From positions 1 to 28,981 of IMG/VR virus record IMGVR_UViG_3300009506_000296: 28,981 bases of DNA; one strand, written 5' to 3'. Below the pieces are notes generated by a model. It worked only from the letters and a program-made list of their open reading frames with translations. It had not been told where the DNA came from and made no database searches. The translations under genes and the position numbers were made by a program. This document shows positions 2 through 27,120 of the stretch, piece by piece. The DNA comes from a virus. How positions within the stretch are numbered: the stretch's first letter is position 1; each line of letters opens with the position of its first letter.

Positions 2-1108
2 GCAATGAGGTTTATTGATTACGTTATTGATGAGACGAGTCTTAAAGGTAACGTAAGAATCGTAAGATTTCGTAATGAAAATATGGATATTAATAAGGTT
101 GGCATTGGTACTCGTGTTGCAGTTCCAAAAAATGAAGCACGTGACCCTGGTGTTAGACGTGGTGTAACTATGTCAAAAATCACTTTGACTCCGTCAGCTT
201 TGATGGTACCGTTTGAAATTACCGAAGAATTTAAAGAATTGAATCTTGAAGGAGATAATTTCGAGGATCATGCAATTAGAATGTTTGCTACACAATTCGC
301 AAATGATATGGAAGAACTGTATATTAATGGTGATAAAAATGGTCCTGCTGTTTTAGAGAGCGATATTATTGATAATGGAAGTTCGACGCAATATATAAAC
401 GATAGTTTTTTGGCATTGCAAGATGGCTGGTCATTGTTGGCAGACAGCGGAAATGTTTATGATGCTGATGCAACTAATATTGGTTTTTCTGTTTTTTCGA
501 ACGCAATTAAATCAATGCCGACAAAATTTAGACGTAATAAAAAAATGTTGCGTTGGTTTATGAGTCCTGATTTAGTTCAGACATATGCGGAAAAAATGAC
601 TACGCGGGCAACTGACGCTGGTGATGCCGCTGGTTCCGGAGCAGTTATGAATCCGTTTGGTATTCAGATTGTCGAAGTTCCATTGTGGGATTTTAATGCA
701 AAAGTAGTTGAACATGTTACATTAAACGGTACTACTGCTGTTTCTCTTAAACACAAAAATATAACAAGTGTTATTGTGCTTCCCGAAACGCTTGCAGATA
801 CGCCTACAACGCCTTATGTTGTAACTACTGATTATACGCTTGATGCTACTGCCGGAACTATTGCAAGAGCTGGTGGAGGTTCAATTGGCGATGGTGATAC
901 GGTAAAAGTTACCTATCTTGCAGCTCCTCAAATGTTGCTTACTCATATGCAAAATTTTATTGTTGCGATAGGTAGGGATATTAGGATTGAAAGAGACCGA
1001 GATATTTACAAATCTGTTGACCAATATGCGATAACTGCAAAAGTTGGTTGCGGTATTGAAGAGTCAACGGCAATTGTAAAAATTAAAAATATCGGTGAAG
1101 GTGTTTAA
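2..1108 (+). CDS. Major capsid protein, HK97-like fold (5' partial)
   Basis: This is the shell protein of the phage head. The frame is open to the left edge. The first ATG (base 5) has no ribosome site in view, and family members carry more residues before the 'RFIDYVID' segment, so the N-terminus is probably cut off. Numbering from that ATG, residues 1-120 hold the family pattern: 'NVRIVRFRN', then 'PFEITEEFKELNLEGDNFED', then 'MEELYINGD', a helix common in HK97-type capsid proteins. Residues about 170-230 look like the P/A domain. Residues about 238-302 form an extra beta-rich insert ('NITSVIVL', 'DYTLDATAGTI', 'GDGDTVKVTY') of the kind found in phage fibre proteins. The chain returns to the capsid fold at 'HMQNFIVAIGRDIRIERDRDI'. 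No protease or scaffold is visible; these would lie upstream. The assignment is strong and the exact N-terminus unknown. Confidence 0.88.
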   Translation, partial: AMRFIDYVIDETSLKGNVRIVRFRNENMDINKVGIGTRVAVPKNEARDPGVRRGVTMSKITLTPSALMVPFEITEEFKELNLEGDNFEDHAIRMFATQFANDMEELYINGDKNGPAVLESDIIDNGSSTQYINDSFLALQDGWSLLADSGNVYDADATNIGFSVFSNAIKSMPTKFRRNKKMLRWFMSPDLVQTYAEKMTTRATDAGDAAGSGAVMNPFGIQIVEVPLWDFNAKVVEHVTLNGTTAVSLKHKNITSVIVLPETLADTPTTPYVVTTDYTLDATAGTIARAGGGSIGDGDTVKVTYLAAPQMLLTHMQNFIVAIGRDIRIERDRDIYKSVDQYAITAKVGCGIEESTAIVKIKNIGEGV

Positions 1109-5347: not shown

Positions 5348-6535
5348 ATGTCAGAAATAACTTTAAAAGAAACAGACACCCATGATACTCCAGCAACTGG
5401 TTATCAAAAAATATATGTAAAAACTGACGGAAAACTATATAGAAAAGAAGACGATGCCACAGAAACTGAAATAGCTGGGAATGTAACTGGTGATTCTAGT
5501 TCAACAGACAACGCTATCGTCAGATTTGATGGAACAGATGGAAAAACTTTACAAAACAGCTCTGTGACAATTGATGATTCAGGCAATATTATTACTTCTG
5601 CAAATGTTGATGGCAGAGATTTGTCAACTGATGGAAGTAAATTGGATGGTATAGAATCTGGTGCTGATGTTACTGATGCAACTAATGTAGCGGCCGCAGG
5701 CGCTGAAATGACGGCCAATAAAAATCAAGTTAGTGGTTATGCTGGATTGGATGGAAGTAGTAAATTAACAGGTTCTCAGCAAGTTTATGGTTCATCTGCG
5801 AACACTGCTTGCGAAGGGAATGATAGTAGATTAGGTGTATTCCCACCCGGTCATTTGTATAAATGTAATGTAAGTTACTATTCTGCTACCCAAATTAAAA
5901 TATCAACGGGTTTTTGTAGAGATAGCGCAAATGCATATAATATTACTGTATCGAGTGAATTAACTGTTGCAATAACATCATCAGGAGCTAACGGTCTTGA
6001 TACAGGATCAGAAGCAACAGATCAACCGTATATGGTTTATGTCTGTGTTGGTAGTTCAGGGGTTTGTGGCTTATTAAGCGTTTCATTGACACCAACATTA
6101 CCATCTGGATATGATTATGGTTATCGTTGTGTTGGTTCTGTAGTAAATCATTCCGGCGATTTTGTTAATTTTACTCAGGTTGGTGTCAGTTGTGATAGAG
6201 AAACAATATTTAATCGTGTAAGATCTGAAGGAATAGTATTATCAAGTGGTTCTGCAACTAGTTGGACTGATATTGATTGTTCGGATTGGGTTCCATTATC
6301 AGCAACTCAGGTACTTTTAGGAATGTATCACGTGCAAGATACTGCCGGAAGATTAGCTATGCTTAGACCATATGGATGGACGGCAAGTACAACAGGGGTT
6401 CCGCAATTATCAGCAACTCCGGAATTAAAACGCGATATGTATGTTTTTGTTGTTGATCAAAAAATACAATATCAGGTAGATCATAGCAGTTCAACTCTTG
6501 GGGCGAATGCTTTAGGGTATAAGGAGAGTTTGTAA
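5348..6535 (+). CDS. Fibre-like virion protein with 'VDGRDLSTDGSKLDGIE' repeat
   Basis: A 395-aa protein starting two bases after the previous stop, with no clear Shine-Dalgarno, so probably coupled. Residues 18-40 ('KIYVKTDGKLYRKEDDATET') and residues 45-75 ('TDNAIVRFDGTDGKTLQNSS', then 'IDDSGNIITSA') are the usual opening of phage fibre shafts. Residues about 78-110 ('VDGRDLSTDGSKLDGIESGA') are a very common fibre motif. Residues about 160-395 form a beta-rich domain with several cysteines, perhaps a receptor-binding head. It lies directly before the glycosidase-like gene. Family type is clear; receptor and position on the virion are unknown. Confidence 0.68.
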   Translation: MSEITLKETDTHDTPATGYQKIYVKTDGKLYRKEDDATETEIAGNVTGDSSSTDNAIVRFDGTDGKTLQNSSVTIDDSGNIITSANVDGRDLSTDGSKLDGIESGADVTDATNVAAAGAEMTANKNQVSGYAGLDGSSKLTGSQQVYGSSANTACEGNDSRLGVFPPGHLYKCNVSYYSATQIKISTGFCRDSANAYNITVSSELTVAITSSGANGLDTGSEATDQPYMVYVCVGSSGVCGLLSVSLTPTLPSGYDYGYRCVGSVVNHSGDFVNFTQVGVSCDRETIFNRVRSEGIVLSSGSATSWTDIDCSDWVPLSATQVLLGMYHVQDTAGRLAMLRPYGWTASTTGVPQLSATPELKRDMYVFVVDQKIQYQVDHSSSTLGANALGYKESL

Positions 6536-6537
6536 AA

Positions 6538-8679
6538 ATGGCTGCAATAATAAGAATAGTTGTAGATAAAACAGGTACACCAAGTACTAAACGGTTAGTT
6601 TGGAAATATGGCCATACTGATTTTACAGGTCAGTTTGATACGGATACACAAGAACAACTTACAATCACTACAAAATTAATAATTGATTTAAGGAAATACA
6701 TTGTCTATTGGCATACCGATACAGAAACTTTTGAGCAAGGAACTGAAATAGAATATATTTCACCGGAAATAGCTCAACATCTTACAGATAATCAAATTTG
6801 GACAGATTCGGTAACTGATAAAAAAGGTCCACCTATACCAATGCTGGCGTTTCATAACGAACGCGAAATAAATAATAATCCTGATAATCCTCTTTATATA
6901 AGTAGTGGTTTCACACCAATGCAAACACAAATAGGAACTTTAAATAGTTTGCATGCAGGTGTAAAATATGGTTCTGGTGGTTGGCATCAGAAACAAATTG
7001 AAAAATCGTTATATACAGGTCCTAAAAAGCTTTTGATTTATTATGGCTGGCCGTATGCTTTTAATTCTGCACAAAATGGTTGGGATTGGAAAAAAGTTTC
7101 TGATGATATGGTCAAATACGATCAAATAGTATTTGGAAATACTCTTCAAGAAATTTTAACTCAAGGTACGCATACAGGTTCTGGTGATGCTTCAACCCTT
7201 ACTGATTCGACAAAATCATGGTCAACCGACGAATTTGTTGGTAAGATAATAATTAATACTACCGATGGATCAATCGGAACTATTACTGCAAATAGTTCGA
7301 CGACGATTACAGCAACATTATCAGGCGGAACCGAAAACGATTGGGATAACGGTGATGCGTATATTGTTGGGAATCATGCCGATATAGGTAATTTTTGGAG
7401 AATAATTCAAAGATTAAAATTACTAAAACCAAGTATTCAGTTGTTTGGTTATGTAACTGTAAATCAGAGCTATTCAAATTTTGAAACTAAGGCGGATGAT
7501 TGGAATACATTAGGCGTGACCGGTGTATTTATGGACGAGGCAGGATGGGATTATGGGGATTCGTCAACAAACGGTCGTGAAGCATTTAATGATAAAGTTG
7601 ATCATGTACATGGTTTAAGTTCGGCTAATGTCTGTTTTGTAAACGCTTGGACGATTGATAATATATTATCTAGTGATTATGATGCGACATGGAATCCAGA
7701 TAGTTTGGATTCGAATTTAATACACAGCGATTGGTATCTTTTAGAATCATTTCCCATTAATGATGCCGCTTATACAGCATCAACTCCAGATGGCTATGAA
7801 CCTAAAGCAGATTGGGTATATAGGGGTATCAAAGCAACTGGTTATCGTTATTCTATGGGAATTAACCTTGCTGCTTGTGGTATTATCACAAACAGTAATA
7901 GCATTGGACAACAATTATTTGATTTTGGATTTATTTCTGCATTAATGTGGGCGTTAGATTCATTTGGAACATCAGATATATATTACGCTGCTAGTTCAGC
8001 AGCAGTAAAATATTGGAGAAGAAATGATCAAACACCGTTAGGAAAAATATATGAATTATCACCATCAATACAAGTAAATTTAATTGATAGTGATTTGTAT
8101 CAAAGATATGTTGAACATGCTGAATTAAGATTAGATTTTTCTGATTCTAACGCTCAAAAATCTGAAATAGCATACCATCAAGGAGTTTTGCCTTATACAT
8201 ATGGACCAAAATCAACTTCTGAAATGGAATTGATTTTGAATCCCAAAATAGGTGATACTTGTTTTAATACAGATTGGAAAAAATTAGCTTATTATGATGG
8301 TGATATTTGGCTTTGTGACCAAATTATCAAATTTACAAATAATTCTGGCGGAACTTTATCAACTGGTGATGTTGTTATTTTACATCAATCATCTTCAGAA
8401 AGTGTAAATACTACTACAACAGCAAGTGATATTAATGTTTTGGGAGTAATTGTAAAAGGAGGCGATGATTCTGAATTTGTATCTGTTGCGATAAAAGGTA
8501 TTTGGGATGTTCTTGTTACTGCAACTACTGCAATAGGAGACGGCTTATACGCAAGTACTACTGCCGGTTCTGCTTCGCCAAACACAAATGGGTCTGTAGG
8601 GGTATTTGCTCAAGCTGTGGCTGTTAGGACTGGTGCGGGGCTCGTTAAAGCAATGATTTGTGGAACTGAAGCTACATGA
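6538..8679 (+). CDS. Virion-associated glycoside-hydrolase-like TIM barrel protein (spherulin-4/GH114/GH135 type)
   Basis: A 713-aa protein; AAGGAGAG inside the end of the previous gene sets the start. Residues 1-150 are an N-terminal structural region. The barrel runs from about 160 to 520: strand 1 'KKLLIYYGWP' (163-172), strand 2 'YDQIVFGN', then 'LFGYVTVNQS', strand 4 'GVTGVFMDEAGWDYG' with D333-E334, 'NVCFVNAW', and 'WYLLESF' with E403. The GYV..GxFxDE order is that of spherulin-4, GH114 and GH135 enzymes, which cut amino-sugar polymers such as galactosaminogalactan; D333, E334 and E403 are the likely catalytic set. A 70-residue beta domain (about 210-279, 'ATLTDSTKSW'-like) is inserted after strand 2. 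Residues about 590-713 are a cement-like domain as in 3236-4930. Probable job: cutting a capsule or exopolysaccharide during adsorption. Substrate and activity are inference; the fold call is moderately firm. Confidence 0.65.
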   Translation: MAAIIRIVVDKTGTPSTKRLVWKYGHTDFTGQFDTDTQEQLTITTKLIIDLRKYIVYWHTDTETFEQGTEIEYISPEIAQHLTDNQIWTDSVTDKKGPPIPMLAFHNEREINNNPDNPLYISSGFTPMQTQIGTLNSLHAGVKYGSGGWHQKQIEKSLYTGPKKLLIYYGWPYAFNSAQNGWDWKKVSDDMVKYDQIVFGNTLQEILTQGTHTGSGDASTLTDSTKSWSTDEFVGKIIINTTDGSIGTITANSSTTITATLSGGTENDWDNGDAYIVGNHADIGNFWRIIQRLKLLKPSIQLFGYVTVNQSYSNFETKADDWNTLGVTGVFMDEAGWDYGDSSTNGREAFNDKVDHVHGLSSANVCFVNAWTIDNILSSDYDATWNPDSLDSNLIHSDWYLLESFPINDAAYTASTPDGYEPKADWVYRGIKATGYRYSMGINLAACGIITNSNSIGQQLFDFGFISALMWALDSFGTSDIYYAASSAAVKYWRRNDQTPLGKIYELSPSIQVNLIDSDLYQRYVEHAELRLDFSDSNAQKSEIAYHQGVLPYTYGPKSTSEMELILNPKIGDTCFNTDWKKLAYYDGDIWLCDQIIKFTNNSGGTLSTGDVVILHQSSSESVNTTTTASDINVLGVIVKGGDDSEFVSVAIKGIWDVLVTATTAIGDGLYASTTAGSASPNTNGSVGVFAQAVAVRTGAGLVKAMICGTEAT

Positions 8680-10917: not shown

Positions 10918-12009
10918 ATGACTTCTTTAGCTAGAGGTGAAGCAAATACAACATCAGGTTTGAATTGGTTTATCCTTGTTAATGGAATAAAAACAGATGC
11001 ATATGAAGTCGGTTACAGAATAATTGATATTACAGGAGGTTTACCAGGTACTCAAGTATTTCCAGAAACAGAAGGCGAATATGAAAATGTAAGTAATGTT
11101 CCAGGTCATTTTGCTGTTGGATCGTATTATGCTTATGATAACGATGAGAGTACTGGTTGGACGCCATCTATAACTGAATCTATAGGTACGCATAGAATAG
11201 AGTGGAGATGGAAAATAACCGCTGCTGCTCCTTATCAGGCTGGTCAAGAGGATTTTGAAGTTTTAGTTCAAAGTGCTGGTTCATCTGTAGACACATATAT
11301 TTCTATTCAGGATGTTCGGGATCAGGGTTTGCTTGAAGCGGATTATGATGATGAAACAGTTTTGGCAGCAATAGAGATGTGGCAATCGTTTATAGATCGC
11401 GCTTGTAGACAATGGTTTAATCCAAGAGCATTGATTTTAAAAGTTGATGGAACTGACAGCGATACTCTACATTTTGGTATTCCTATAATAAGTATAACTT
11501 ATTTAAAGCTTAATGATAGCACAAGCGAATTAGATACAACTCTTTATAAAGTGTATAACAGGTTAAATGATTTTACAGATAAATGGAATCCAAGAATAAA
11601 ACTTGTAAATTCAATTGAAGAAACAGATATATATACAGCACCAATAACAGGAAGGGCTTTAATTTTTAGAAAAGGTAGACAAAATCAGGAAATAAGTGGA
11701 GTATTTGGTCATGTTGAAGATGATAATTCTCCTCCAAAATTAATTCAAAGGGCTTTATTGAAATTGGTTATTGAAAAATTAACTAAACCTTTATACTCAT
11801 CTGGACTTTCTTTGTCCGGCACAATACCTCCTATTTTGGGAAATGTGATTGAAGAACAAACTGATAACCACAGAATAAAATATGGTGGTTTTAAACAAAT
11901 TGCTCAAGGTTTAGCAGGTATAACGAATGACTTAGAGATTTTGACAATTTTAAAAATGTATAGAGCACCTATAGGTTGTATAACTCAAGCAAATCCTAGT
12001 TATAGGTGA
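10918..12009 (+). CDS. Head-tail adaptor (gp6/gp15-like connector) with extra N-terminal beta domain
   Basis: A 363-aa protein whose ATG follows the previous TAA directly. Residues about 126-363 carry the adaptor pattern: 'YISIQDVRDQGLLEADYDDE', then a helix with 'IEMWQSFIDRACRQWFNPR', a beta insertion, and a C-terminal helix region ('LIQRALLKLVIEKLTKPL'). Adaptors of this fold form the ring beneath the portal. Most are 100-180 aa; here residues 1-118 add an Ig-like or fibre-type beta domain ('NWFILVNGIKTDAYEVGYRI', 'IGTHRIEWRWKI') that could stick out from the neck and hold a fibre or collar. Followed at four bases by the head-closure gene, a typical order. The C-terminal role is well supported by context; the N-terminal job is inference. 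Confidence 0.7.
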   Translation: MTSLARGEANTTSGLNWFILVNGIKTDAYEVGYRIIDITGGLPGTQVFPETEGEYENVSNVPGHFAVGSYYAYDNDESTGWTPSITESIGTHRIEWRWKITAAAPYQAGQEDFEVLVQSAGSSVDTYISIQDVRDQGLLEADYDDETVLAAIEMWQSFIDRACRQWFNPRALILKVDGTDSDTLHFGIPIISITYLKLNDSTSELDTTLYKVYNRLNDFTDKWNPRIKLVNSIEETDIYTAPITGRALIFRKGRQNQEISGVFGHVEDDNSPPKLIQRALLKLVIEKLTKPLYSSGLSLSGTIPPILGNVIEEQTDNHRIKYGGFKQIAQGLAGITNDLEILTILKMYRAPIGCITQANPSYR

Positions 12010-12013
12010 TATT

Positions 12014-12418
12014 ATGGTATTACCAAGATTGTTACATCCGGTAAATATAACATTGCAAACTATGGATATTTCTAATACAATATATGATGAAAATCATAGA
12101 GAACCAATACCGCAGACAGTAAGAAATGGTGATGAGATTGTTTTAGGTCAAGCAAGTATTTATGGCAGAGAAATGGAAGTTGATATAGGTGGAAAAATAA
12201 TAAAAGCTACAGGATATGTTTTATTTAGGTATATTGATTTAGCTTCTAAATCAATAACATTAAAAACAGATGACAGAATAACAAAAATAGGAAATTTAAC
12301 ATGTGTTTATTATATTGTAGGTTTAACACCAACAGGTCATTATCCTGAATTTGGTGCTACAATGGTAAAAGCATTTTTTAATGATAGACACCCAAGTAAA
12401 AATAATTATTCGATATGA
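12014..12418 (+). CDS. Head closure / head-tail joining protein
   Basis: A 134-aa protein starting four bases after the adaptor gene. The opening 'LHPVNITLQTMDISNTIYDE' with a following 'NHREPI' and a beta-barrel-like middle ('IVLGQASIYG', 'KIIKATGYVLFRYIDLASK', 'DDRITKIGN') resemble phage head-closure or stopper proteins, which bind under the adaptor and gate DNA exit. Length (about 110-140 aa in the family) and gene order (adaptor, closure, neck, terminator, sheath) agree. The stop overlaps the next ATG as ATGA, so the two are coupled. Confidence 0.6.
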   Translation: MVLPRLLHPVNITLQTMDISNTIYDENHREPIPQTVRNGDEIVLGQASIYGREMEVDIGGKIIKATGYVLFRYIDLASKSITLKTDDRITKIGNLTCVYYIVGLTPTGHYPEFGATMVKAFFNDRHPSKNNYSI

Positions 12419-13059
12419 AAACTATTTTCAAAATAAATAAAAATTGGAAAAAACTTGAAAAAATGCTTGGTAAAGATGTTTTTAACAAAATAGTTAGAAA
12501 AAACATTAGACAGGCAAGCAGATTAAATGGGAAAATTTATGAAAAACATGTAAGAAATACTATAAAAAATGGTAATTTTCAAGATAATGCAGAATTAACA
12601 CAACTTATTAAAAATGATAATAAACCATTAATAGGTTTTGAACCTGGCGCTACATTGTTTAAATCTGTTACGTCTAAAGTTTTAGGAACAAGTTCACCAT
12701 TTTTAGATTATGTATTTGTCGGAATTTTAAGAACTAATCAATTTTACAATATAGCGTTAACTGTGCATTATGGAAAATCAATAAACGTAAGTGATAAAAT
12801 GCGCGGTTTATTTTTGGTTCTTGCTAGTGCAAGCCAAGGAAAATTAGATCCATCAAAATTATCAGGTAGAGCAAAAGAACTGTTTGGTTATTTTAAAAAA
12901 TGGAAACCATTAAATAGTAACACAACTAAAATAATTATTCCTCCAAGAAGTTTTATAGATGAAGCTTATAAAAATCAAGGAATGAAAAATTTGTTAATTA
13001 GGAATTGGTTCCAAGCATTTAAAACGGCTTATAGAGAACTAAATACGATGATAAAATGA
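12415..13059 (+). CDS. Neck / tail completion protein (HK97 gp10 or Mu gpG-like)
   Basis: A 214-aa basic protein. Residues about 36-95 ('ASRLNGKIYEKHVRNTIKNG', 'ELTQLIKNDNKPLIGFEPGA', 'TLFKSVTSKVL') follow the phage virion-morphogenesis pattern in which a helix is followed by 'L....I...KPLI.tG.L..si'. The later part ('TKIIIPPRSFIDEAYKNQG') has the 'iPPR.F...a' phrase that is common near the end of gp10-like neck proteins. It is expected to join head and tail at the neck. It overlaps both neighbours by four bases. Length is above the usual 120-170 aa because of a loop around residues 120-165. Confidence 0.62.
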   Translation: MKTIFKINKNWKKLEKMLGKDVFNKIVRKNIRQASRLNGKIYEKHVRNTIKNGNFQDNAELTQLIKNDNKPLIGFEPGATLFKSVTSKVLGTSSPFLDYVFVGILRTNQFYNIALTVHYGKSINVSDKMRGLFLVLASASQGKLDPSKLSGRAKELFGYFKKWKPLNSNTTKIIIPPRSFIDEAYKNQGMKNLLIRNWFQAFKTAYRELNTMIK

Positions 13060-14305: not shown

Positions 14306-16588
14306 ATGACACAAAGACGTTTTGGACCTACAAGGGGCGCTGGTGTGGTCATAATTGAAAAATCTGGTCAACAGAGCATTTCGCCAGCTCCATTTGGCTG
14401 GAGTGGCTATGCTGGTTTGTTAGAAAAAGGACCTGTTGGAGAATTAATATCATGTCAAAATAAAGCATCATTTCTTAAAAAATGTGGTTCTTTTATTGAC
14501 GATTCATTACTTCCCGACAATTGTTTTAGTTATTATAAGCTGGCAAATGGTTCTGGCGGCTTGTATTTGGTTAGAGTTACTGACGGTAATGAAGTTCAAG
14601 CAGAAAAAACTATTTATGCAAGAAAAGATGGTATAATACCTGTCGCTATGGGAACAATTAAAGCTCACAATGGTGGGCGTTGGGGCGGAAAAAAACAAAA
14701 ATATGATGGCGACGTATCTGACGTCGCTGATATTGACGAAACAGAAATTGATACCGGAGTATTAACGTGGAAAACTAATGAATGGGCCGGTGGGTATGTC
14801 GAACTTGAAGGAGTAGCGAATACTCAATATCCTATTATTGGAAATACATCTGCTGGTGTGATTCAAGTTGCTTCTGATCAAACAATGGATACTGATTTGG
14901 GTGCTGGTTCTGAAACTGGATATACTTTGTTTTTGGATAATGATGAAAAAGCAGTTTCATTTGAAATTAGTGATGGTGAACAGAATCCAGATACTGAATT
15001 TTCTTTATCTGTTTATGTTGACGGAGAATTTGTAAAAAAATATTCTGATTTATCTACTGATCCTACATCAACAAAATATTGGGTTTCTATTATTAACAAC
15101 GATGATTCTAATTATGAAATTTCTGTTGTTGATTTATGGACTGGCGCTCATGTAGCGAATGTAAGACCAGCAAATTATTATGGAGTTGTTTCGAGTATTA
15201 CAGATACGGTTTTGACTGCAAGCATACACTATATGGATTTGGCTGGAGCCACAGGAAATCCGACAATTGCGCTTGGTACTATAAATGCTGAAATGGTAAG
15301 GCAAACTCTTACTATAACAATGACATCAGCAACCGAAGGTAGCGTTATTTCTTCAGAATTTGGTTCTCTAGGCACTATTACTTTCGGAACAGAATTTGAT
15401 TCTGGTCATAGGTTTATTCCTCCTTTTACAATAACGGCAGGAGTAACTCCATGTGTTGCTACAGATGTAATTGTAGTTTATTATAAACCAATGGACGATG
15501 GTGAATATGCAGGAGGTTATTTATATCCTGATAAAGTAAATAGTAAGCTCACAAAATATAGAATTGTATCTAATACATATTCGACAATTACAGTTGCAGA
15601 CGGCTCAGCAATGACGTCTATTTCAGAAGCAGACGATGAATTTATGGTTGTTTCACCAATTGAGCTTGGAGGTGGAATAGATGGTAACGCAGATATAGCA
15701 GATACTGATTACACACAACAGGCTTGGGATACCGCTTCAAGTCCGTTTAATCGTTTAAAAGGTACAAATGCCGGTCTCGTAAAATTTGCTACTCCCGGAG
15801 TGACATCAACAACTGTTGCAAAAGCTGGTGTTGCATATGCGGAAGCCAAAAATCATCAATACCGTTATGAAATTCCTTCAAATATTATAACTGAAGAAGG
15901 TGCTATTTCTCAAATTAATGATACGTATGGGAGAAATGATTTTGCAGTAGTTTCATTTCCATCATATTGTTATGTTGCCGATCCGCTTGGTAGTGGTGAA
16001 GGGAAAAGAAAGCTAGTTACTAATACAGGAATGATTCATGGTCGAGAATCAAGAATTGCTGCTGATTATGAAGGCTATCACAAAGCTGAAGCTGGGATTG
16101 ATGCGATATTGCCAGAAATTCTTTCCTTAACCACTGGGAATGTTATTTTAGATGAAGAAAGTTTGAATCCTGTAGGAATTTCAATTGTTAAAAAAATGAA
16201 AGGTAACTATATTATTTGGGGTGATAGAACATTGTATCTTGATTCTACTTGGAAGTGGAAACACCAAAGAGAAACTATGTCGTATTACGAACAAGTACTT
16301 GCTGAAAATCACGATTGGATTATTTTTCAATTAAACGATTCTGCTTTAAGAAATGATGTTAAAGCTTCTCTAACTGCATTCTTTTTGCCCGAATGGAGAA
16401 AAAAACATGCAATTGTTGGAAATTCTTTTGCAGAAGCATGTATTATTAAAATAGACGATGAAAATAACACATCGATTGATTCCGATAATGGAGATTTTAA
16501 TGCATCAATTTCTTTAAAATTTGTTGGTACTGTTGAGAGATTTAAAATTGAAATTGGTAAACAAGGAATTTTTGATTCTGCTAACTAA
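14306..16588 (+). CDS. Contractile tail sheath protein
   Basis: A 760-aa protein with a very strong site (AGGAGG) ahead of the ATG. The N-terminus 'PTRGAGVVIIEKSGQQSI' with 'APFGWSGYAGLLEKGPVGEL' is typical of phage sheath proteins, and residues about 480-760 hold the conserved core and C-terminal insertion domain: 'GTNAGLVKFATPGV', 'NPVGISIVKKMKGNYIIWGD', 'FLPEWRKKHAIVGNSFAEAC', 'SISLKFVGTVERFKIEIG'. The sheath subunits surround the tube and shorten on infection. Residues about 141-430 are large surface inserts. The first (about 141-205: 'IDTGVLTWKTNEWAGGYVEL') resembles the beta domain inserted in the glycosidase-like protein. Family sheaths are usually 390-660 aa, so this is a large one. 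The tail tube gene follows after one small gene. Confidence 0.9.
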   Translation: MTQRRFGPTRGAGVVIIEKSGQQSISPAPFGWSGYAGLLEKGPVGELISCQNKASFLKKCGSFIDDSLLPDNCFSYYKLANGSGGLYLVRVTDGNEVQAEKTIYARKDGIIPVAMGTIKAHNGGRWGGKKQKYDGDVSDVADIDETEIDTGVLTWKTNEWAGGYVELEGVANTQYPIIGNTSAGVIQVASDQTMDTDLGAGSETGYTLFLDNDEKAVSFEISDGEQNPDTEFSLSVYVDGEFVKKYSDLSTDPTSTKYWVSIINNDDSNYEISVVDLWTGAHVANVRPANYYGVVSSITDTVLTASIHYMDLAGATGNPTIALGTINAEMVRQTLTITMTSATEGSVISSEFGSLGTITFGTEFDSGHRFIPPFTITAGVTPCVATDVIVVYYKPMDDGEYAGGYLYPDKVNSKLTKYRIVSNTYSTITVADGSAMTSISEADDEFMVVSPIELGGGIDGNADIADTDYTQQAWDTASSPFNRLKGTNAGLVKFATPGVTSTTVAKAGVAYAEAKNHQYRYEIPSNIITEEGAISQINDTYGRNDFAVVSFPSYCYVADPLGSGEGKRKLVTNTGMIHGRESRIAADYEGYHKAEAGIDAILPEILSLTTGNVILDEESLNPVGISIVKKMKGNYIIWGDRTLYLDSTWKWKHQRETMSYYEQVLAENHDWIIFQLNDSALRNDVKASLTAFFLPEWRKKHAIVGNSFAEACIIKIDDENNTSIDSDNGDFNASISLKFVGTVERFKIEIGKQGIFDSAN

Positions 16589-18338: not shown

Positions 18339-20984
18339 ATGGCTTTTGAAAAAATAGGATTAGGTTCAATATTTTCAACAGATGCTACTCAGATGATAGG
18401 TTCTGTCAATAGAGCCCACGATTCTTATGAACGTTTTGTTAAATTAACAAATACAGTTCCGGGCTCTATGGACAGAATTGCAAGATCATCATCGTCTCTA
18501 ACTGCTAAAATGTCGGCAATGGCTTCTGGTGTCGCTTCAGGAGTGTCAAAAATATCATCTGGTGTTGGTAGTCTTGGAGTTGGTTTATCTCCTTTGTCCC
18601 TTGCTGTTGGTGCTGGTTTTAAACAAGCGGTTGATTATGAAAAACAAATGTCGGCTGTTGGTGCTGTTTCGAGGGCAACTGGGGGAGAAATGACTATGCT
18701 CGGAAATGAAGCTAAAAAAATGGGCATAGTATCCGTGTTCTCCGCCACACAGGCAGGGGAAGGTATGGAATATTTAGCTAGAGCAGGGGCTAGACCAACA
18801 GAGATTGTAGCGTCTCTTGGAGGCGTTATGAATGCTGCTGCTGCTGATGGAATTGAACTTGGTCAAAGTGCCGATATTGTTGCTCGTATTGTAAAGGGAA
18901 TGGGTAAAGAATGGAATGATGCTGGACATATCGCTGATGTTTTAGCCTTAGCAAGTGCGAGTTCAAATACAAATATACTTGGATTAGGAGAATCGTTTGT
19001 TTATGGCGCTTCTGCCGCAAAAACTCTTAATTTGTCACTTGAAGAAACAACATCGTTATTTTCAAAAGCAGCAGATGCAGGTTTAAAAAATACATTGGCT
19101 GGAACGTCGTTTACAAATATGATGAGCAAATTAGCTAAACCATCTGAAAAAGCACAAAAAATACTTAAAAAATTCAATATTAAACTTGTAGAAAGTGATG
19201 GTAGCTTAAGAAAGGTTGCTAATATAGTTGAAGACTTTAAAAATAAAGTATCCGGTATTAAATCGGTTATGGAGAAACAAGCCATTATCCAGGAAGTTTT
19301 TGGTCAAAGAGGTGCAAAGGCTTATAATGCGTTATCTGTAGCAGGTTCTAAAAGTATTTTACAGCTTGAAGAAGAATTAAAAAATTCTTCGAAAGATGGA
19401 GGTTCTGCTCTAGAAATGGCAAAAAGAAGATTAGATAATTTTGCCGGTTCTATTACTTTGCTTAAAAGTTCTCTTGAAGGTTTTTCAATTGGTTTTTTCG
19501 AACCATTATTAAAACCGTTTGCTGCATCAATAAGACAATTTACGGAAGGATTTAATAATGTCTTATTAATGCTAAATGATATAAATGATGCAACTACAGA
19601 CGGAAAAACAGATTTTACAAAATTAACCGGTGTAATGGGCAAATATGGTAAGGATGCTGTTAATATTGCTTGGGGACTTAGAGATGCAATTGATACAATA
19701 AGACATGCATGGGAATGGTTTACTGAAAAAATACAACAAGGTGCAAAATGGTTTAAGGATACTGTTGGAGGTTCTACTTCTTTAAGACAAATAACAAAAA
19801 TGGCATCATTGTTCTTGATTGCAGCCGCTGCTATAACTCCACTAATACTTGGTTTGGTAGGAGTAAAATTTATAATTGGCGGTTTAATTTCTATAGTTTC
19901 GGGCTTGGGAACTATATTGGCCGCTACTTTTTGGCCAATAGTTGTTGTTTCAGGAGCAGTATTACTTGCTTGGCAATTATTAAGGCGTGAAAACGAAACA
20001 TTTTTACAGACAGCATCAAGAGTTTGGTCAGAATTCAAAGTTTGGGCATTGGATGTATATCAAAATGTTTTGCAACCAATGTGGAGAGGAATAAAAGATA
20101 CGTTTATTCCTATAATCGATGAATTTGGTAAAGTATGGGCCGATATAGTTACAAACATAAAAATTGTTTTTGCAGATCTTTATACTTTTTTATTTGGTGA
20201 AATGGATAAAACAAAAGTAGACTGGAGAGAAGTTGGTAGAATAATTGGTTCAGTAATTGGAGCAATAGCAGAAACTATTTTAATTTTTGTAAAATACGCA
20301 ATCCCATTGATTGCTTCAATCGCTATTACAATTTATAAAGTAGTTAGTTTTGTTTGGAAAATTATAAGTGGAATAATAACTCAAATAGCAGAAGGTTTTG
20401 CAAAACTCGCAATAGCATTTGAAGATATTTTTGCTGGTGATATGGTAAGAGGTTTAGTAAAATTGGGCACTGCAATATTAGATTTTGTTTTGAAACCTTT
20501 GAGATTGATAATAGAAGCGGCATTAGCACTTGGCGACGCATTAAATATAGACGTACCTGATGCCGTTAGGACATTCGCAAAAGAAGGTTTGACAGGCAAT
20601 ATATTTAATATTCCGGCAAATGAAAAAACTTATAAAACAAGAGAAGAAATGTTAGGATCAATCGGAATTGTAGAACCTAAAAAACTTGTAGAACCAGAAG
20701 ATGTTAGCAAAAGAAATGCCGAATTAGCAAAATTAGCAACTGATTCAGCAAATATAGCTACAAAAAAAGAAGCTATTAAGAAAGAAGAAATAAAAGTTGA
20801 AAATGTAATAGAGGACAAAAGACAACTTAATATCGATAATAACGTTTCTGTTGATGGTGAATCTTTAAATATAATGAGTTCTAGAAAACAATTAGAAATA
20901 CAAGAACGATCTGGTTTTAAAGCTACTCCTTGGCAAAGAAGATCGTTGCTGGAGCACGGTTCGTCTCCAATGAATAGGGGTTGA
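18339..20984 (+). CDS. Tape measure protein
   Basis: An 881-aa protein directly after the chaperone extension (TAA then ATG). Residues about 80-340 are the TP901-type tape-measure core: 'AVDYEKQMSAVGAVSRATGG', 'MEYLARAGARPTEIV', 'TLNLSLEETTSLFSKAADAG', 'AIIQEVFGQRGAKAYNAL'. Hydrophobic stretches at about 490-545 ('LFLIAAAAITPLILGLVGVK' onward) and about 633-690 ('IFVKYAIPLIASIAITIYKV') are suited to crossing the host membrane during DNA entry. The C-terminus ends with 'RSGFKATPWQRRSLLEHG', also a family habit. It sets tail length by its own length; 881 aa would give a tail in the medium range. No lysozyme or peptidase domain is seen. Confidence 0.88.
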   Translation: MAFEKIGLGSIFSTDATQMIGSVNRAHDSYERFVKLTNTVPGSMDRIARSSSSLTAKMSAMASGVASGVSKISSGVGSLGVGLSPLSLAVGAGFKQAVDYEKQMSAVGAVSRATGGEMTMLGNEAKKMGIVSVFSATQAGEGMEYLARAGARPTEIVASLGGVMNAAAADGIELGQSADIVARIVKGMGKEWNDAGHIADVLALASASSNTNILGLGESFVYGASAAKTLNLSLEETTSLFSKAADAGLKNTLAGTSFTNMMSKLAKPSEKAQKILKKFNIKLVESDGSLRKVANIVEDFKNKVSGIKSVMEKQAIIQEVFGQRGAKAYNALSVAGSKSILQLEEELKNSSKDGGSALEMAKRRLDNFAGSITLLKSSLEGFSIGFFEPLLKPFAASIRQFTEGFNNVLLMLNDINDATTDGKTDFTKLTGVMGKYGKDAVNIAWGLRDAIDTIRHAWEWFTEKIQQGAKWFKDTVGGSTSLRQITKMASLFLIAAAAITPLILGLVGVKFIIGGLISIVSGLGTILAATFWPIVVVSGAVLLAWQLLRRENETFLQTASRVWSEFKVWALDVYQNVLQPMWRGIKDTFIPIIDEFGKVWADIVTNIKIVFADLYTFLFGEMDKTKVDWREVGRIIGSVIGAIAETILIFVKYAIPLIASIAITIYKVVSFVWKIISGIITQIAEGFAKLAIAFEDIFAGDMVRGLVKLGTAILDFVLKPLRLIIEAALALGDALNIDVPDAVRTFAKEGLTGNIFNIPANEKTYKTREEMLGSIGIVEPKKLVEPEDVSKRNAELAKLATDSANIATKKEAIKKEEIKVENVIEDKRQLNIDNNVSVDGESLNIMSSRKQLEIQERSGFKATPWQRRSLLEHGSSPMNRG

Positions 20985-24960: not shown

Positions 24961-27120
24961 ATGAGTATAATAACAATACCAGATTTTGATTTTGCAAATT
25001 TTTATTATGCTGAAGTTTTGGAAGCTTTACTTCAATATAAAAGAGTAAATTTGCCGAAATTAACTGACGAATCCGATGTTGAACCATCGATACAATTATT
25101 AAGAGCTTTTGCGTTAGTTTGTCATTTAAATAATGTAAATTTGGATATTGTAGCGAACGAAAGTACTTTACCAACAGCTAAATTAACCGAAACAGTTAGA
25201 AATATGTTGAGATTAATCGATTACGAATTAGATTCAGCAACACCAGCACAAGTAGATATTGTGTACGAATTATCAAGAGTATTTACTGTTTCAACACTTA
25301 TTATCCCTGAAAATGCACAGGTATCTACTCAAAAAACAGACGAATCTGATTCAGTTTATTTTGAAGCGTTAGAATCTCTTACTTTAACAAACAGAACTGA
25401 TGAATATAGTTATGTTTTGGGAGAAGAAGACGGAACCTTTACAGATTATACTACAAAAGCGAATAGTGAAACAACGCCAGCAGATGATTGGACTCCTTGG
25501 ACAACACCAATTTCAAAGGATTCTGTTTATTTTGGTCATACACAAATAATGTGGGATAAAATAGGAATTACTTTAACAACAGCAATGGCAAATATTATTG
25601 GCGTTTTGGAGTTTTATGACGGTAATTTTTTAAAAACACAACCGACAAGCGTAACCGATCTTGGTCCTAATTTGGAAATAGATTTGACTTCGTTACTTGG
25701 AATAAACAATAGGCAAGGTACTCTTGTTAGAATTCAATTGAATTCTACCACAGCATATGAAGATTTATATTCAACTTGGGATGGTTCTAAGAATATAATA
25801 ACTACAACTGGATTATTAGGACAAACAACACCATCAGAAGAAGAAAATGATTATACAATCGGTTCCGATTGGTCTATTTTAACAGTTACTGATACTACTG
25901 AAGATTTTACTGTTGATGGCAATATCAGTTTTATTTTGCCTCAAACAATTACACAAAATTGGATAACAAGTGAAATAGATAACAAAACTGCTTATTGGTT
26001 AAGATTTCGAATAATTTATGTTAACACACCTACTTCACCTGTATTTCAAAAAGTTACAATTGATGAAGGGAAACAATATGTTTTAAGAAATACAACCCAA
26101 GGCAGAACATATATTGAAAATCCTTTAGGTTCGTCAACCGGTTTGCCGAATCAAAATTTTGTTACAACTAAAGATCATTTTCTTTGGAGTAGCGAAACAG
26201 TTACTGTAGACAATGAGGAATGGACAAGAGTAGACAATTTTTTAAACAGTAGCAATGCATCAAAACATTATGTAGTTCAACTTGGCGAAAACGATAGAGC
26301 AACTATTAAATTTGGTGGAAATGGTAAAGGTCTTGTTCCGCCAGTAGGCGCAGGAAACATTGCTATAACATATAGATATGGCGCTAATTTAAGCGGAAAT
26401 GTAGGCTATGAAACTGTTGATATAGATAAAACTGGCCTTACATACATAAATAGAATTTGGAATCCAAGATCTGGAACGGGTTGGAAAATAGCTGAAGGTT
26501 CTACTGACGAAAGTCTTGAAGAAGCAAAAATAAAAGGACCTTATTCATTAAGATCAAGATATGTTGCTGTAGGTCCTGATGATGTAGAATATTTGGCGAC
26601 AAATTATATTGATAGTAATGGAGCATCACCATTTTCTAGATCTTTAGCAATAGAAGAAGGTTACGGCCCTAAAACTATAGAACTTGTTTTGGTTGCTAGC
26701 GGTGGCGGTTTAGCAAGTGCATCTCAAATAGAATCTATAGAGGAATATTTTAATGGTAACAAATATTCAAATCCAGTTATAGAAAAACATATTATTGCAA
26801 ATCAAGAAGTTACTGCTGTTAATTATACTCAAAAAATAATTAATGTTGTAGCAACTGTTTATGGAGATATTGACAAAGAAGAAGTAGAAAATAAATTATA
26901 TCAAATTTTACAACCTGAAGCAAAAAATGATAATAACGAATATTTATGGGATTTTGGTGGAATCGTTCCAGTTAGTAAAATAAATCACGAAATATTTAAT
27001 ATAAATTCAGAAATTACAAAAGTAGATATAACAACACCATCATCAGATACTGTTTTACAAAGCAAAGAATTGCCAATAGCCGGAACATTAACAATAACAA
27101 TTGTAAATCCAAATGATTAG
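24961..27120 (+). CDS. Baseplate wedge protein, gpJ / gp6-like
   Basis: A 719-aa protein three bases after the gp25-like gene. N-terminal residues 1-130 ('EPSIQLLRAFALVCHLNNVN', 'ETVRNMLRLIDYELDSATPA') are the gpJ/gp6 start, in which helices precede the 'p...v' beta region. Residues about 150-330 hold a fibre-type insert ('DDWTPWTTPISKDSVYFG'). The conserved core returns at 'SLRSRYVAVGPDDVEYLATN' and 'GYGPKTIELVLVASGGG', followed by the C-terminal 'NVVATVYGDIDKEEVENKLY' and 'FGGIVPVSKINHEIF'. Baseplate wedge proteins of this type change shape to trigger sheath contraction. It is about 150 aa longer than usual because of the insert. Confidence 0.8.
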   Translation: MSIITIPDFDFANFYYAEVLEALLQYKRVNLPKLTDESDVEPSIQLLRAFALVCHLNNVNLDIVANESTLPTAKLTETVRNMLRLIDYELDSATPAQVDIVYELSRVFTVSTLIIPENAQVSTQKTDESDSVYFEALESLTLTNRTDEYSYVLGEEDGTFTDYTTKANSETTPADDWTPWTTPISKDSVYFGHTQIMWDKIGITLTTAMANIIGVLEFYDGNFLKTQPTSVTDLGPNLEIDLTSLLGINNRQGTLVRIQLNSTTAYEDLYSTWDGSKNIITTTGLLGQTTPSEEENDYTIGSDWSILTVTDTTEDFTVDGNISFILPQTITQNWITSEIDNKTAYWLRFRIIYVNTPTSPVFQKVTIDEGKQYVLRNTTQGRTYIENPLGSSTGLPNQNFVTTKDHFLWSSETVTVDNEEWTRVDNFLNSSNASKHYVVQLGENDRATIKFGGNGKGLVPPVGAGNIAITYRYGANLSGNVGYETVDIDKTGLTYINRIWNPRSGTGWKIAEGSTDESLEEAKIKGPYSLRSRYVAVGPDDVEYLATNYIDSNGASPFSRSLAIEEGYGPKTIELVLVASGGGLASASQIESIEEYFNGNKYSNPVIEKHIIANQEVTAVNYTQKIINVVATVYGDIDKEEVENKLYQILQPEAKNDNNEYLWDFGGIVPVSKINHEIFNINSEITKVDITTPSSDTVLQSKELPIAGTLTITIVNPND

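Follow-up and report, generated by a model that had tools for sequence, protein, structure and literature searches.

A (beta/alpha)8-barrel protein encoded among phage particle genes likely represents a new glycoside hydrolase family, distinct in sequence and retaining in mechanism

The focal gene and its neighbourhood

The window, a viral record analysed over its whole length of 28,981 bases, carries genes for particle proteins in the order major capsid protein, fibre-like genes, focal gene, head-tail adaptor, neck protein, tail sheath, tape measure and baseplate wedge. The major capsid protein gene occupies positions 5..1108 (+ strand; phrog_1623, virion structural protein), and residues 244-309 of its product match phrog_807, an Ig-like-domain tail protein family, which suggests that an Ig-like decoration is inserted in the capsid protein. 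Downstream of the focal gene lie the adaptor (10918..12009, + strand; phrog_442), neck protein (12415-13059), tail sheath (14306..16588, + strand; phrog_23), tape measure (18339-20984) and baseplate wedge (24961-27120). The focal open reading frame (6538..8679, + strand) encodes 713 residues, exactly as an earlier sequence-only reading of this DNA had placed it, and its product comprises an anchor, a stem, a barrel with a beta module and a cement-like domain.

The fibre-like gene upstream of the barrel gene (5348-6535) has a weak C-terminal match to the second domain of Mtd. Its N-terminal half is kept in the related contig L001 and its C-terminal half is swapped, a pattern like that of a host-range cassette; in contig L008, a gene upstream of the barrel resembles the C-terminal part.

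The order of capsid protein, fibre-like genes, barrel and adaptor is common to the window, L001 and L008. The tail sheath follows the adaptor in the window and in L001, and in L008 it would fall beyond the contig end. In L045, the barrel gene is immediately upstream of an adaptor-like gene, and the sheath is found approximately 5-9 kb downstream of the barrel gene in the L009, L011 and L045 contigs. BLAST detected no C-terminal homology between the focal protein and a 564-aa neighbour.

Outside the barrel, the focal protein begins with a variable region (residues 1-84; 6538..6789, + strand) that is modelled with low confidence, differs between the window and L001 and has no Pfam match. A conserved helical stem follows (residues 85-159; 6790..7014, + strand), which contains the motif NREI...NPLY...GWH and is common to most fibre-type relatives, whereas stand-alone barrels lack it. 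The C-terminal domain (residues 595-703; 8320..8646, + strand) weakly resembles phage cement (capsid decoration) proteins. Its match to PF09956 has an E-value of 0.046 (14.5 bits) with the whole protein, 6e-4 (20.5 bits) with the domain searched alone and 7.6e-4 (20.3 bits) in L001, each below the cut-off of 24 bits. Searches of the focal protein against NCBIfam and PADLOC returned no match. The product had been described as a fibre protein, which is plausible, but a position between capsid and adaptor genes and a cement-like C-terminus suit the head or neck at least equally well. We favour attachment to the head or neck over the tail tip because of this synteny and the sub-threshold PF09956 match.

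Predicted barrel, candidate active site and family relationships

An AlphaFold2 model of the full-length protein, built with 30 relatives, contains a confident barrel between low-confidence ends (residues 1-75 and 550-713). A Foldseek search with this model was swamped by TIM barrels with poor TM-scores, pyruvate kinases among them, and we therefore folded the domain alone. Residues 145-550, modelled with 32 relatives, gave a pLDDT of 91.2 and a pTM of 0.90. The predicted domain is an interrupted (beta/alpha)8 barrel (residues 160-500; 7015..8037, + strand) with strands at 163-168, 196-199, 301-307, 329-333, 365-369, 399-408, 443-449 and 475-479. Short beta strands follow and form a C-terminal subdomain of the barrel unit (residues 510-549; 8065..8184, + strand), which aligns with the corresponding part of GH168 enzymes; the structure alignments with GH168 extend to model residue 403, equivalent to protein residue 547. 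A TIM barrel had been proposed from the strands LLIYYGWP, LFGYVTV, GVFMDEAGWDYG, VNAW and LLESF, all of which occur in the protein, and structure prediction bears the proposal out. The model shows this fold in place of a right-handed parallel beta-helix catalytic domain. The barrel is unlikely to be a chance prediction, because relatives with 40-56% identity in more than 30 viral contigs have the same one.

Three residues on the predicted strands are candidates for the active site: D333 at the end of strand 4 (329-333; codon 7534..7536, + strand), N369 at the end of strand 5 (7642..7644, + strand) and E403 on strand 6 (399-408; 7744..7746, + strand). Each is invariant in 32 of 32 aligned relatives, even though pairwise identity to the window drops to 42%; Y305, D338, W371 and R495 are equally invariant. 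The sequence-only reading had named D333, E334 and E403 as likely catalytic residues. All three are found at those positions and the conservation agrees with two of the choices, but E334 is kept in only 30 of the 32, with S in L072 and R in L039, and is therefore not required for catalysis.

In families of the GH135/GH166/GH191 type, the catalytic pair consists of an Asp nucleophile and a Glu acid/base (PMC12054363), and D206 and E264 are essential in the GH168 enzyme FunA (PMC7401878). In the model, D333 and E403 match the Asp/Glu pairs of GH168, GH135, GH166 and GH191 in topology, and we propose them as nucleophile and general acid/base, respectively. The GH168 active site conserves a Glu-Lys pair, Tyr-x-Asn, Asp, Asn and Glu, including N234 (PMC10778895), with which the strand-5 Asn of the focal barrel may be compared. 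Here, the invariant residues include Y305 on strand 3, D333 on strand 4, N369 on strand 5 and E403 on strand 6, and a comparison by strand position identified no Glu-Lys pair.

This conservation bears on whether the barrel is instead catalytically dead or lectin-like and serves to attach to host glycans in receptor binding or adhesion. A case for such a fate comes from gp050 of the cultured Bacillus phage vB_BauM_KLEB27-3, a divergent protein that is the only credible relative among 50,697 phage records. In this 2078-aa tail fibre protein (L046:8578-14814), a recognisable barrel close to the N-terminus scores 52 bits against the family profile; it retains E403, has K at the D333 position and has lost the N369 motif. 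A tail fibre has thus kept this barrel despite the loss of D333 and N369, which shows that the fold need not be catalytic to be retained, and every member must be judged by its own motif. For the family as aligned, we nevertheless regard a dead or lectin-like barrel as rather improbable, since D333, N369, E403 and R495 are invariant in 32 of 32 sequences, very divergent copies included, as is predicted for an enzyme.

Structure comparisons place the barrel nearest to GH168. With either model, the top 14 chains in VIA-align are the GH168 endo-fucanase group, with Z-scores of 17.9-19.9 for the full model and 17.8-19.7 for the domain model over 263-278 aligned residues that include the C-terminal strands. 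Foldseek with the domain model likewise ranks GH168 first (E 2.7e-6, TM ~0.4). GH191 (Z 15.7), GH166 PelA (15.4-16.4) and GH135 Sph3 (14.6-15.7) come next in VIA-align with 208-222 aligned residues, and these scores are near the background of other TIM barrels (Z about 14-15). A superposition on Sph3 or PelA had been suggested as a check; both align, but GH168 scores higher.

The rankings by two methods, the inclusion of the C-terminal beta subdomain in the match, and the shared strand-4 Asp, strand-6 Glu and strand-5 Asn (compare GH168 N234, PMC10778895) would all fit an endo-fucanase of the GH168 type with a sulfated or fucose-rich polysaccharide as its substrate. We consider this assignment unlikely: the low Foldseek E-value is accompanied by the TM-score of only ~0.4 and by 10-15% identity, sequence profiles matched no GH168 chain, and several GH168-like proteins are inactive on the fucans tested (PMC7401878, PMC10778895). 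Neither the protein nor three family profiles had sequence relatives among the solved glycoside hydrolases of the PDB, and hmmsearch of PDB chains with profiles A2, A6 and A7 found no GH168 chain at E<=10. Two weak esterase matches with profile A2 (E about 0.3) were dismissed.

Sequence comparison points, though weakly, to a different neighbour. Spherulin4 (PF12138) is matched at E<=0.1 by 25 of 30 aligned members, the best at 2.7e-6, and the focal protein scores 18.4 bits as a whole and 21.8 bits without its insert against a Pfam cut-off of 30.2. The structural features of GH135/Spherulin4, a (beta/alpha)8 fold whose fourth and sixth strands bear the catalytic Asp and Glu, respectively, are also present in the model. 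The sequence-only reading had placed the barrel in the spherulin-4/GH114/GH135 group; the fold and the sub-threshold similarity agree with that placement, but the score is below the cut-off and GH168 is structurally nearer (Z 18-20). A true GH135 (Sph3-like) enzyme, or a GH166/GH114/GH191 alpha-galactosaminidase, would cut GalN/GalNAc polymers such as Pel, and these are the only families with a Pfam or sequence link to the barrel as well as the next-best structural scores. Against such an enzyme stand the higher Z-scores and longer alignments with GH168, the Spherulin4 scores under the cut-off and the lack of a family hallmark. In GH114, GH166 and GH191, an inserted three-stranded beta sheet separates strand 3 from helix 3 (PMC12054363), whereas the model has only four residues there, between the last residue of the strand (307) and the first of the helix (312). 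We therefore judge an alpha-galactosaminidase of these families to be improbable.

The Spherulin4 name has also been given a quite different meaning. The one report on viral Spherulin4-annotated proteins that we found in the open-access literature describes three such proteins in Atacama soil viruses and interprets them as sporulation genes (PMC8269230). By analogy with these "spherulation-specific family 4" proteins, the focal gene would be an auxiliary metabolic gene tied to host sporulation. We think this highly improbable, as the gene is inside a virion structural operon and has fibre-like domains, and Sph3 is a glycosidase and not a sporulation regulator (PMC12054363). Conversely, the Atacama proteins of that report (PMC8269230) may themselves be particle enzymes rather than sporulation products.

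Because GH168 is the best match by structure and Spherulin4 matches weakly by sequence, we place the barrel in the same broad fold group and in no named family. Together, the sequence comparisons and models are best read as a new, sequence-distinct family that likely comprises retaining glycoside hydrolases on phage particles.

The inserted module and the distribution of the family

The interruption of the barrel is a beta module of ~74 residues (about 205-278; 7150..7371, + strand) at the junction of strand 2 and helix 2. A beta domain spliced in after strand 2 had been claimed at 210-279, and alignment to module-free relatives supports the claim with slightly shifted ends. The window, L001, L011, L072 and L097 carry the module here, and the other 27 of the 32 aligned relatives have a short loop instead, typically DPGHGDY. 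The module is a true insertion, since it is missing from these 27 relatives and recurs elsewhere: at least 136 viral-contig stretches encode it, at varied positions and in phage proteins that are mostly unrelated. On the barrel tree, the well-supported branches imply a minimum of two events of module gain or loss.

Copies of this ~70-residue module follow the pattern G[ST]HTG...LTDS...VG..I.N.TDGS.GTITAN...TITATL.GGT.NDWD..D.Y.I (window 7150-7371; L047-L125) and sometimes appear in tandem (L065, L069). No copy was found in cultured phages or plasmids at the sensitivity tested. At the nucleotide level, other copies are no more than 69% identical to that of the window (median 59%). The transfers must therefore be old, and we rejected a recent DNA-level mobile element, as such values show no recent jumping. 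The module is a widespread one in phage proteins for which we found no Pfam family, and it is perhaps a mobile accessory domain for glycan binding or spacing. Its place would be a substrate-side loop, where it leaves the barrel fold unbroken.

Protein and profile scans of IMG/VR identified one full-length relative, L001, with 72% identity, and barrels with 34-56% identity in more than 30 uncultured viral contigs, including contigs of 195-470 kb. Architectures differ across the family: some proteins have fibre-type N-termini, some end in collagen-like or other segments, and others, ~310-340 aa long, are stand-alone barrels. In several members the barrel is joined to fibre-type or structural parts. 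The 411-kb contig of L021/L030 and those of L025, L032 and L044 each carry two or three copies of the barrel, often side by side. The L021/L030 contig has an additional, distant stand-alone copy, and several stop codons interrupt one copy on the L044 contig. The barrel at L028:5923-6948 lacks fibre parts and begins with a stretch that resembles a signal peptide (MRKTVFVLTMIVSFLFATTVCAG); it is possibly a secreted free enzyme.

Plasmids yielded no relatives of the barrel. Two scans of 84,980 species genomes likewise found no cellular relatives, although these used short exact peptide patterns that divergent relatives could escape. A match in a Rhodococcus phage (26% over 15% of the protein, E 0.02) was dismissed as chance.

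Proposed role and comparison with known systems

We propose that the focal protein is probably a virion-associated retaining glycoside hydrolase that cuts host surface polysaccharide near the head-neck region. The N-terminal stem would carry the barrel, with the putative cement-like domain present at the C-terminus in this phage. D333 on strand 4 would act as the nucleophile and E403 on strand 6 as the general acid/base, with N369 and neighbouring aromatic residues holding the -1 sugar, and the polysaccharide would be cut by a retaining endo mechanism. A particle-attached barrel near the head-neck could clear capsule or exopolysaccharide and thereby give the tail access to its receptor, so that trimming would precede adsorption or DNA delivery. 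The sequence-only reading had suggested amino-sugar capsules or biofilm matrix as the target, which we regard as a guess. Stand-alone barrel copies need not be virion proteins, which counts against a particle-borne enzyme. More tentatively, the family may be an undescribed one, related in fold to GH168, GH135 and GH166, that serves as a depolymerase near the head-neck, and not at the baseplate, in many uncultured tailed phages, with contigs of 200-470 kb among them, and has diversified by repeated insertion or loss of the promiscuous module in a single loop at the active-site face.

A depolymerase on a phage particle is already known as a kind, and it is the enzyme architecture that differs here; the open-access literature yielded no description of a phage particle enzyme with a GH135- or GH168-like barrel. 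If our reading is correct, depolymerases would have a second architecture, a TIM barrel encoded on dozens of uncultured phage contigs, and the family would provide a source of enzymes against surface polysaccharides. It would also bear on the placement of depolymerases at the head or neck.

Among known systems, KLEB27-3 gp050 has a homologous barrel, but this barrel lacks the inserted module and belongs to a long fibre with an F5/8-type C domain. GH135 Sph3 (Spherulin4, PF12138) resembles the focal barrel in fold, in the strand positions of Asp and Glu and in the sub-threshold profile similarity of most members, but it is a fungal enzyme that acts on galactosaminogalactan, and its structural score is below that of GH168. 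The GH166 PelA hydrolase, GH191 and the GH114 alpha-galactosaminidases share the fold and the catalytic Asp/Glu positions, and differ in the beta sheet inserted after their strand 3.

The GH168 endo-fucanases (FunA/Fun168A 8YA6/8YA7, Fun168D/E, 9JP2 and also 9F9V) share with the focal barrel a (beta/alpha)8 fold followed by C-terminal beta strands, a strand-4 Asp, a strand-6 Glu and an Asn between them. They differ in sequence, with a structure-aligned identity of only 10-15% and no profile match in the PDB, and they are secreted bacterial enzymes, whereas the focal barrel is encoded among phage particle genes. We know of no GH168 enzyme with a beta module after strand 2.

Most well-characterised phage depolymerases are tailspikes, typically right-handed beta-helix trimers. 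These resemble the focal protein in its proposed role, as particle-borne enzymes that clear host polysaccharide, but the tailspikes are built on a beta-helix, whereas the focal protein is predicted to be a TIM barrel and is encoded between capsid and neck genes.
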